Source of the DNA: an uncultured Pseudomonadota bacterium
Lineage (GTDB): Bacteria; Pseudomonadota; Gammaproteobacteria; Methylococcales; Methylomonadaceae
DNA: 64,000 bases
NCBI GenBank assembly: GCA_903889445.1
Contig: CAISXF010000005.1
Span: 62,001 to 126,000, forward strand
Direction of reading: 5' to 3'
Shown: in pieces, positions 38,017-60,349 of the stretch
How the letters are laid out: each line of letters begins with the position of its first letter
How positions within the stretch are numbered: position 1 is the first letter of the stretch
The notes under the pieces: model-generated
Seen by the model: only the letters and a program-made list of their open reading frames with translations
Told to the model about the DNA's origin: nothing
Database searches by the model: none
Made by a program: the position numbers and the translations under genes

Positions 38017-38092
38017 TTTTTCAGGATGACACAACCTGTCGTCGGTGTGGTTTATACTGCAATCGAATTTTTCATTTTAATATGGAGGGATT

Positions 38093-38392
38093 ATGAGTTT
38101 TGTTAAATCATTGGCTTACGTTGCTGCTGGAGTTGGTGCTGTTGTTCTTGCACCAGTTACTGGTGGCAGTTCCTTAGCTGTTCTAATTGGTACAATGGGA
38201 ACGACAACTGCTTTAGGTGCCGCTCTTGGAATTTCACTTGGGGCAACTGCGGCGGCAGTAGATATGGGAGTTACCAAAAAACTTAATGAAAAAGAACAGG
38301 CTCGACTTCGTAAAAGTAACGAACGAAAAAGTATTCAAACCGAAATGACTAACTTGGAATATTCACTCAATTTCGACTTCAAGCACGATTAG
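38093..38392 (+). CDS. Small Gly/Ala-rich hydrophobic protein, unknown function
   Basis: 99 aa ORF preceded by a tggaggga RBS; Gly-rich hydrophobic half then a charged tail. Confidence 0.7.
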   Translation: MSFVKSLAYVAAGVGAVVLAPVTGGSSLAVLIGTMGTTTALGAALGISLGATAAAVDMGVTKKLNEKEQARLRKSNERKSIQTEMTNLEYSLNFDFKHD

Positions 38393-38403
38393 GAAAAATT
38401 AAA

Positions 38404-39435
38404 ATGAGCATTATCGTAGACATCCCCGAAGCATTTTCAACTGCTTACAAATTAGGAAAAGTGGTTAGATATGGCACGGTGTTGAAAGATGTCAACACAG
38501 GAAAAATTGTGGCGCATTTAGCTGAATCAAAAAATCTAATTGATTTGATTTCAAAAATACCTGCGAATCCAGCACAAATGGTAACGGGATTAGTCAACGC
38601 CGCTTCGAGTGTTGCGACAAACTATCAGCTATACAATCAGAGCATTCAACTTGCCGAACAAGGAAAGCAACTCAGTCAATTAGCCGAACAAGTTACAAGT
38701 TTGGCTGGTCTCACAAAATTTGCTGTTGGGCTAAGTGGCGTTGGTGCAATTGCAAGTGTGGCAACTTTCGCGCTTTGTGCCACTAAATTCAAAGCAATCG
38801 ATAACCGTTTGAATAATATCGAAACGAAAGTTGATGCCGTTTTTGATAGATTAGAACGCCAAGAAAGAAATACTGAAAAACGAGAAGTTAGGGCTTATTT
38901 GTGCGAAATAAAAAGCAGTTTTGATTACTTAATTCCAACAGCAAGCCGCTCTAAGGTTGAAGAAATTCAACGCGATTTAAGCCGTGGTTTTTCAGGTATT
39001 AACATTTATCTCAAAGAGAAAATCCAAACCGCACCAAAACAGATTGATATTGACGATGTGATTTTTTTGTACAACACCTTAACGATTACAGCGATGGGTG
39101 AATTTAGAGGTTTTGTGATTCTCAACGATGTTCAAGGTGCAAAACACATTTTGCATAAAAGAAAAACGGATTTGAATGATTTAAAAAAATCGTTGGCGCA
39201 CATTTCACAAGTCGTTAAAGCTGATGACAATAAATTGAGCAACGAGCAGCTTAAAGAGAAAAAAGACCAGTTTGAACTTTTGGTTAATAACGTAATGGCG
39301 TGTTATGCGGATTTTGATAGCCAAGGGTTAATTGTTTCGGAATATTTCGATAAAAAGAAAATTCAGTTAAAGCATTATTACGAAGATATGGAAGACGATG
39401 ACACAAAAAATGGAATTATCGTTATGCCTCACTAA
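38404..39435 (+). CDS. Uncharacterised protein with hydrophobic segment and coiled coil
   Basis: 343 aa ORF 11 bp after the previous gene; FAVGLSGVGAIASVATFALCATKF then NRLNNIETKVDAVFDRLERQE. Confidence 0.75.
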   Translation: MSIIVDIPEAFSTAYKLGKVVRYGTVLKDVNTGKIVAHLAESKNLIDLISKIPANPAQMVTGLVNAASSVATNYQLYNQSIQLAEQGKQLSQLAEQVTSLAGLTKFAVGLSGVGAIASVATFALCATKFKAIDNRLNNIETKVDAVFDRLERQERNTEKREVRAYLCEIKSSFDYLIPTASRSKVEEIQRDLSRGFSGINIYLKEKIQTAPKQIDIDDVIFLYNTLTITAMGEFRGFVILNDVQGAKHILHKRKTDLNDLKKSLAHISQVVKADDNKLSNEQLKEKKDQFELLVNNVMACYADFDSQGLIVSEYFDKKKIQLKHYYEDMEDDDTKNGIIVMPH

Positions 39436-39458
39436 TTTTTGATAGACGGTTATTTTTT

Positions 39459-39963
39459 ATGGATGATTTAAATACAGCAGAGTATTTACTGGTTTTTTTT
39501 GCATTTTTGCTTCATCAATTAGTTTCATTATTGAAAGTTTGGTTATCAACGCCTTTAGGACTAATAACTTTTTTGTTGTTTTGTTTTGTTGTTTACCCAT
39601 TTTGTAAATGGGTATTTGCAAAAAATTCCATTTGTTGTTTACCCATTTTGTAAATGGGTATTTGCAAAAAATTCCAACAGCCAACCAACTAGACCCGTCA
39701 GACGTAGCTGGTGTTTCTTTGGTAGAAATCAACCACCAACATCAAACAATAGTGTCCCGCCAACCACTAACCGTGCAAGTATCGCTAGACGTAATTTTCG
39801 ACGTTTATTTGGAATAGGCAGAAATACTACTGTCGCAAGTAGAAATTTGTCTAGCAAGCAACAAAAACAAATAGAAGAACTTGAAACCGCACACAGAGAA
39901 GGATTTTTATCCGATACTGATTTTCAAAGAAGAGTTGCTGAAATAAATAATTCACATATTTAA
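39459..39963 (+). pseudogene. Membrane protein with C-terminal SHOCT-like segment, split by a 46-bp tandem duplication
   Basis: ORF 39459-39653 and ORF 39586-39963 join into a single 153-codon frame (505-46=459 nt) when one repeat copy is removed. Confidence 0.8.
39585..39676. repeat. Exact 46-bp direct tandem duplication
   Basis: tttgttgtttacccattttgtaaatgggtatttgcaaaaaattcca at 39585-39630 and again at 39631-39676; each unit contains the palindrome tacccattt-tgt-aaatgggta. Confidence 0.97.
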
Positions 39964-39973
39964 TTAAAAGCCC

Positions 39974-40243
39974 ATGAAACACACACTTTTCACCATTCTA
40001 ATAATTTTCACCTTATCCGCGCAAGCCGCCGACAAACGCATTTATTCGACGGACGCAATTGGCAACCGCCAATACGATAAACCGTCTTACACCATTACGG
40101 ATAATGGGCGAATCTACGAAACCGATTCAATCGGCAACAAACGCTACGATAAACAAAGCTACAAAATTGAAGGCAATAAAATTTTGCCCACAGATTCGAT
40201 TGGCAATCGGCAATATGACAAACCGCAATTTGAGATGAAGTGA
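39974..40243 (+). CDS. Small secreted repeat protein
   Basis: Signal peptide MKHTLFTILIIFTLSAQAA then three repeats TDAIGNRQYDKPSY / TDSIGNKRYDKQSY / TDSIGNRQYDKPQF. Confidence 0.75.
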   Translation: MKHTLFTILIIFTLSAQAADKRIYSTDAIGNRQYDKPSYTITDNGRIYETDSIGNKRYDKQSYKIEGNKILPTDSIGNRQYDKPQFEMK

Positions 40244-40284: not shown

Positions 40285-40450
40285 AACACTTTTCTAGTTT
40301 CACCTTTGCCGATTGTGAGCAAATCCTAAGTCAACAAAATCAAACCTGCAAATGTCATCAAACCAAAGAACCAATGCCCAAGCCATCGAACTTTGAAAGG
40401 AAGTGATTTCAATTACGGAGATATATCGAATTTCTTATGCTTGAGACCCG

Positions 40451-59290: not shown

Positions 59291-60349
59291 TTATTCAGTT
59301 TCTACAAGTCCCAATTCTTCAGCAAAATCGGGCAATTCCGAATAATGCAAAAGAAAAACACCCGTAGCATTAGCCAATTTTTTAGCCGAAGCCGTGAATG
59401 TCGAATTAGTTACCACAGCGGCAACGTGCGCTTGCTCAAAAGCCTTTCCTGCAATGATTTCTTGAACCGCACTATTTCCAACTGGTTGCGAGTATTTTTT
59501 AACCTGAAAAACAGCTTTCACATTTTCGTAAGTCGCAATAACGTCAATGCCTTGGTCGCCGCTTGCTTGTGTGACGCGAGCTGTCCAACCACTTTGATTC
59601 AAAAGGTCGGCGCATTGATGTTCAAAATCTATCGGACTAACGTCATCTAAATTTTTAACTTTCGACGGCGTTTTGTCTTCATAATCAAAAATTAAATCTA
59701 CAACAATTTTCCAAACTAAATCTTCTTTGTTATAAGGAATATCAATTTTTGTTTTGATAGTTTTATCAAAAAAATAATTAAGTTCTTTTATAAAAGCTGA
59801 CACATCTTCGTTGCCATAATCATCAACACGAACAAGCTGCTTTTTCTTTAATAACAACTTATCTAAATATGGTTTAACCAGAGGTGGTATTTTTGCTGAA
59901 ATCTTTTCAGTAAGAACAGCATCATCTTTCTTTGCTTGTTCATGGGCAACAATACGGGCTTCAGCCGTAGCATCCCCTGAATCAACTCTAGCTTTTTCTT
60001 TAGCTAAATCAGCAGCGACTATAATCTCCCAACGCTTATCCTTGTTTTCTGCTCCACTCAAGCGTGCAAGTTCAGCATCTAGCTCTTTTTCAATAAGAAA
60101 AATTTTAGCTTTAAGCTCGGTTTGAATTAGGGAAATTTCATTATGGGCAGCAATACGGGCTTTAGCTGTAGTATCCCCTGAATCAACTCTAGCTTTTTCT
60201 TTAGCTAAATCAGCAGCGATTAAAAGCTCCCCTCGCTTACTCTTATTTTCTGCTCCACTAAAGCGTGCAAGTTCAGCATCTAGCTCTTTTTCAATAAGAA
60301 GAATTTTAGCTTTAAGCTCGGTTTGAATTCGGGAAATTTCATTGCTCAT
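59291..60349 (-). CDS. Mrr-like restriction endonuclease domain protein with duplicated coiled-coil N-terminus
   Basis: C-terminal DFEHQCADLLNQSGWTARVTQASGDQGIDVIATYENVKAVFQVKKYSQPVG; N-terminal 67-aa segment present twice. Confidence 0.85.
   Translation of the reverse strand: MSNEISRIQTELKAKILLIEKELDAELARFSGAENKSKRGELLIAADLAKEKARVDSGDTTAKARIAAHNEISLIQTELKAKIFLIEKELDAELARLSGAENKDKRWEIIVAADLAKEKARVDSGDATAEARIVAHEQAKKDDAVLTEKISAKIPPLVKPYLDKLLLKKKQLVRVDDYGNEDVSAFIKELNYFFDKTIKTKIDIPYNKEDLVWKIVVDLIFDYEDKTPSKVKNLDDVSPIDFEHQCADLLNQSGWTARVTQASGDQGIDVIATYENVKAVFQVKKYSQPVGNSAVQEIIAGKAFEQAHVAAVVTNSTFTASAKKLANATGVFLLHYSELPDFAEELGLVETE
59936..60337 (-). repeat. 201-bp (67-aa) intragenic tandem duplication
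   Basis: ISRIQTELKAKILLIEKELDAELARFSGAENK... and ISLIQTELKAKIFLIEKELDAELARLSGAENK...; nucleotide landmarks spaced exactly 201 bp. Confidence 0.95.

Follow-up and report, generated by a model that had tools for sequence, protein, structure and literature searches.

An exact 46-bp tandem duplication splits a small SHOCT-like membrane-protein gene in a variable-cargo block of a Methylomonadaceae bacterium

Two identical 46-bp copies lie head to tail inside what looks like one small gene of an uncultured Methylomonadaceae bacterium. We asked whether this duplication inactivated the gene, whether it works as a reversible switch, or whether it is an error of the assembly. The locus was analyzed in a window of 64,000 nucleotides, to which all positions refer unless another locus is named, and compared with 18 genomes of the genus. 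A sequence-only reading had proposed that the duplication splits one gene, that its loss would restore the frame, and that the event is very recent and potentially reversible. The explanation that we consider probable is that a spontaneous exact duplication inactivated, by frameshift, the third gene of an operon with variable cargo.

The duplication and the broken reading frame

An exact repeat of 2 x 46 bp has a chance expectation of about 1e-22 in 64 kb. The interval carrying it (39459-39963) measures 505 bp, and subtracting one unit leaves 459 bp, i.e., 153 codons including the stop, as the sequence-only reading had calculated. As 46 mod 3 equals 1, a change in copy number shifts the frame, which is what the sequence criterion for phase-variable loci asks for. 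The N-terminal reading frame, ORF1, runs out of frame past copy 1 and ends within copy 2, at its 23rd base, later than the position directly behind the first repeat that had been proposed, while the continuation was correctly assigned to another frame, open from within copy 1 (Table 1).

Table 1. Positions of the features discussed in the text, in window coordinates.
Feature	Position	Strand	Remark
Inverted repeat (G)ATGACA-N5-TGTCGT(C), candidate WYL-family operator	38026..38043	+	ATGACACAACCTGTCGTC, just after alr
Cargo gene 1, 99 aa, hydrophobic, glycine-rich	38093..38392	+	
Cargo gene 2, 343 aa, one hydrophobic segment	38404..39435	+	about 90% DNA identity to G004
N-terminal half of the broken gene, 64-aa hydrophobic ORF1	39459..39653	+	stop inside copy 2
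Duplication copy 1	39585..39630	+	46-bp unit
C-terminal half of the broken gene	39586..39963	+	+1 frame, open from within copy 1
Palindrome TACCCATTT-TGT-AAATGGGTA, 9-bp stem, 3-nt loop	39594-39614	.	in copy 1
Duplication copy 2	39631..39676	+	100% identity to copy 1
Same palindrome, second occurrence	39640-39660	.	in copy 2
Gene 4, 89 aa, probable signal peptide, "YDKPSY"-type repeats	39974..40243	+	

Since both frames are open (64 codons for ORF1 and up to 125 for the downstream frame), the two-copy form could be read as two genes, ORF1 encoding a membrane protein and an internal start giving a separate SHOCT-like protein. However, the C-terminal frame contains no ATG or GTG start; its in-frame candidates are only TTG codons, at 39586, 39589, 39616, and 39847, none of the four being preceded by a recognizable ribosome-binding site, and relatives use one continuous frame. 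Two separate genes therefore appear highly improbable. We also considered two ways in which the downstream half might still be translated. Reinitiation at the stop of ORF1 was rejected, as the ATG past the TAA shares the frame of ORF1 and is soon followed by a stop; a ribosome slipping by -1 on the A AAA AAT of copy 1 would enter the wrong frame, the C-terminal frame being +1 (or -2), and this route was rejected as well. The start of ORF1 lies 24 bp past the upstream stop, with the same spacing in the congeneric genome G004. Because a good start is lacking in the C-terminal half, we infer that cells with two copies would make only a 64-aa membrane fragment, and that the gene in this state is probably off.

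Regarding the origin of the duplication, the ends of the unit share 0 nt of microhomology, which rules out a microhomology-mediated tandem duplication, and simple slippage does not account for the event. Each copy contains a palindrome, not mentioned in the sequence-only reading, which was rejected as a dispersed repeat family since the genome holds just the two occurrences, both in the copies. As single-stranded DNA, the repeat region folds better than its shuffled versions (z -4.4), while a single unit gives a z of -1.9. A hairpin-assisted replication error may be guessed at as the source of the duplication. A structured RNA was rejected: the match to the Rfam family JA04 is below threshold (27.5 bits versus 81, E 0.33), and we judge it to be a chance match in A+T-rich hairpin sequence. 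In 605 kb of the same genome, scanned as sampled stretches including the window, this is the only perfect tandem duplication whose period exceeds 16 bp. Elsewhere in the window, an imperfect tandem duplication of 2 x 201 bp with 92% matches is found at 59942-60343.

Continuous relatives and the encoded protein

We then looked for the same protein in the genus and found it encoded in 2 of the 18 genomes. In G011, it is one uninterrupted frame of 200 aa, in which the region homologous to the repeat unit occurs once; in G002, it is listed as one uninterrupted ORF of 196 aa, with a contig start nearby, and the homologous region is again single. The alternative foreseen by the sequence-only reading, that relatives all carry two copies, is thus not what these genomes hold. 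A search of genome contigs for further relatives returned only the G011 locus (uncultured proteobacterium bin Kiruna_bin-05821), and none were found in viral contigs, phages, or plasmids. The continuous single-copy frame of the two congeners indicates that the two-copy form is the derived one and that the gene is broken here.

The C-terminal half (39586-39963) shows 68% protein identity to the continuous relative in G011, and it was found to be 82% and 75% identical to G011 and G002, respectively. Its dN/dS is 0.34 when compared with one relative and 0.33 with the other, much like the 0.28 between the relatives themselves. This half therefore still looks coding and carries no sign of long decay, suggesting that the duplication is probably young, and the recent origin claimed earlier from the identity of the copies is plausible. 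The N-terminal 126 bp (39459-39584) have no DNA match in the G011 and G002 relatives, so that the former single frame is deduced from position, hydrophobicity, and frame arithmetic, the latter fitting by chance alone in 1 case out of 3.

The encoded protein has several hydrophobic segments, an arginine-rich linker, and a C-terminal SHOCT-like helical hairpin. Its C-terminal stretch, KQ.KxIxELExAHxEGFLSDxDF, is common to other membrane proteins of the genus, and an alignment of five proteins shows invariant E, G, F, L, and D in it. For the broken gene as for its relatives, the best Pfam match at the right place is SHOCT (PF09851), with scores of 11.5-17.2 bits (13.1, 17.2, and 15.0 among them), below the Pfam gathering cut-off of 27. 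The layout of that domain is nonetheless found, namely a position within 50 residues of the C-terminus, a conserved glycine and glutamate, and two helices. An AlphaFold2 model of the G011 protein, built from two sequences and poor overall, places helices at residues 165-179 and 185-197, with a pLDDT of 76-87 in this block, and thus predicts a C-terminal helical hairpin with fair confidence. The description of the gene as membrane/SHOCT-like by the sequence-only reading thus holds for the C-terminus in a qualified way: the protein is SHOCT-like and not a SHOCT member.

Assembly error or reversible switch

The draft genome comprises 121 contigs, is about 95% complete, and is probably a metagenome bin. 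Exact duplications as long as an assembly overlap are a known type of error, and in such a draft the duplication could be an unmerged overlap or come from a mixture of strains. However, the contig ends of this assembly overlap by 60-138 bp, and in one pair by exactly 141 bp, not by 46 bp. This pattern, which comes from few contig ends, suggests an assembler k of about 141. Single k-mers of that length would hold the whole array of 92 bp together with unique sequence on either side, and any k above 92 cannot create the internal junction unless reads hold it; the join between copies should therefore come from reads, which makes an unmerged 46-bp overlap unlikely. An artifact of this kind would also be at odds with the 605-kb scan, in which no further perfect duplication turned up, whether 46 bp long or with any other period over 16 bp. 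Overall, we find it quite unlikely that the duplication was produced by the assembly.

The sequence-only reading had also suggested a reversible on/off switch by slippage or recombination. In such a switch, the population would alternate between one copy (on) and two copies (off), which would give bet-hedging for a costly membrane effector. Several features agree with phase variation: the copies are perfect, adjacent, and in coding sequence, their length is not divisible by 3, the two halves of the gene are otherwise intact, and the palindrome of each copy together with the strong predicted hairpins could favor slippage. Reversible intragenic duplications that cause phase variation of the pneumococcal capsule have moreover been reported (cited in PMC4243769). 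On the other side, there is one observation in one genome, and the repeat is absent from the other genomes that carry the gene. In classical switches, many short units are maintained; the array here has just two copies, so that a reverted cell would have no special tendency to duplicate again, and no end-point microhomology is present to make the forward step recurrent. The single-copy state in other species is divergence and not switching, and no related genome shows a variable copy number. Reversible switching is not supported by any of these data, and we regard it as unlikely. A disabling mutation is a simpler reading of the duplication than an evolved switch.

In the explanation that we favor, a spontaneous 46-bp tandem duplication (+46 = +1 mod 3) would have arisen in the gene of a small SHOCT-like membrane protein. 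Duplication, broken frame, and continuous single-copy relatives are observed, and from them we infer the loss of the protein and the recent origin of the event. As in any perfect tandem repeat, one of the units may be dropped, so that revertants are to be expected in principle: slippage during replication, or recombination, would at low frequency remove exactly one copy and with it the frameshift. The mutation is of an ordinary type, as intragenic duplications that break and can restore frames are already documented. Its importance is mild and comes from its place, since the gene hit is the third one in a cargo-swapping operon behind a conserved WYL-type box.

The operon-like block and known systems

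The broken gene is the third of four same-strand genes in an operon-like block that begins with the inverted repeat of Table 1. The 343-aa product of cargo gene 2 has a very weak PADLOC match to JukB (E 0.002), which neither Pfam nor NCBIfam confirmed, and its structure model is useless (pLDDT 36). Gene 4 is the conserved 3' partner of variable cargo in the genus, and the number of its "YDKPSY" repeats varies, giving proteins of 89 to about 145 aa. Depending on the genome, the cargo consists of TerD proteins (G015), glycine-rich SHOCT-like proteins, or toxin-antitoxin-like pairs, and in most cases the 89-aa gene comes next. G010 has a pair of type II enzymes, a methylase and a restriction enzyme, 5' of that gene, and the sequence immediately 5' of the pair yielded no box. 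The cargo of the window gave no firm match. Downstream of the block, 40287-40409 is a 3'-end remnant 88% identical to positions 2604-2727 of locus L024, where the gene in question adjoins the block in G011; we take this gene to be norB-like from our own reading of its frame in L024, and the match suggests that the block moved by recombination. The block (38018-40243) is possibly an undescribed mobile or defense cassette of this genus, and the variable operon behind the box is more interesting than the duplication itself.

The box lies in a conserved stretch of about 45 bp (38018-38062), found 5' of the cargo in most of the congeneric blocks. Its pattern, ATGACA-N5-TGTCRT, occurs at 31 places in 11 of the 18 genomes, and the reversed pattern used as a control matched nowhere in the 18. 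In G004 and G014, the box precedes the gene of an HTH-WYL-WCX regulator and appears again before the cargo; the regulator gene is open in these two genomes, as well as in G002 and G007. By its sequence, the box is a candidate operator of the WYL family. Four boxes are left in the window genome, where a WYL fragment with stops (G000:C36:1636-1863, locus L161) is located away from the block, beside a conserved box. An intact close WYL homologue was not found in this genome, although the assembly, being about 95% complete, may have missed an intact regulator.

With only a fragment of the WYL regulator left, the cargo may be derepressed, which perhaps favored the disabling of the gene. In this attractive but speculative story, mutation would have disabled a costly cargo gene after its derepression; regulator loss and a broken cargo gene, taken together, would be a testable case of the disarming of a costly system. 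A more elaborate version, in which the duplication serves as an on/off switch of a membrane effector in a WYL-controlled, cargo-swapping defense operon and replaces the lost transcriptional control by genetic bet-hedging, seems to us very unlikely.

Three known systems can be compared with the locus. SHOCT has been described as a helical hairpin (Eberhardt and colleagues, 2013, PMC3581485); the likeness lies in a C-terminal region of about 30 residues with the conserved glycine and glutamate and a predicted pair of helices, the difference in scores under the Pfam cut-off for the broken gene and its relatives.

For the pneumococcal capsule, PMC4243769 attributes to Waite and colleagues (2001, 2003) spontaneous duplications in capsule genes (the type 3 locus; cap8E, tts), reported as high-frequency, reversible phase variation. 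The likeness is that a duplication within an ORF inactivates it. The capsule duplications were reported to be frequent and reversible, in contrast with the single static allele seen here, in an uncultured bacterium and in a gene without assigned function, and the 0 nt of end-point microhomology at our locus is a further difference.

Finally, the WYL-box block resembles phage-defense islands with WYL regulators of the BrxR and CapW type (PMC9122601, PMC9122588). The inverted repeats bound by BrxR have a 5-bp spacer and lie ahead of its own gene, and further repeats form a second set deeper in the island (PMC9122601). In the congeners, the likeness consists of an HTH-WYL-WCX regulator and of repeats with a 5-bp spacer that precede both the regulator gene and the downstream operon, a resemblance in sequence pattern only. 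The repeat sequence is a different one, the cargo is mostly not a known defense system, and the window genome shows only a fragment of the regulator.
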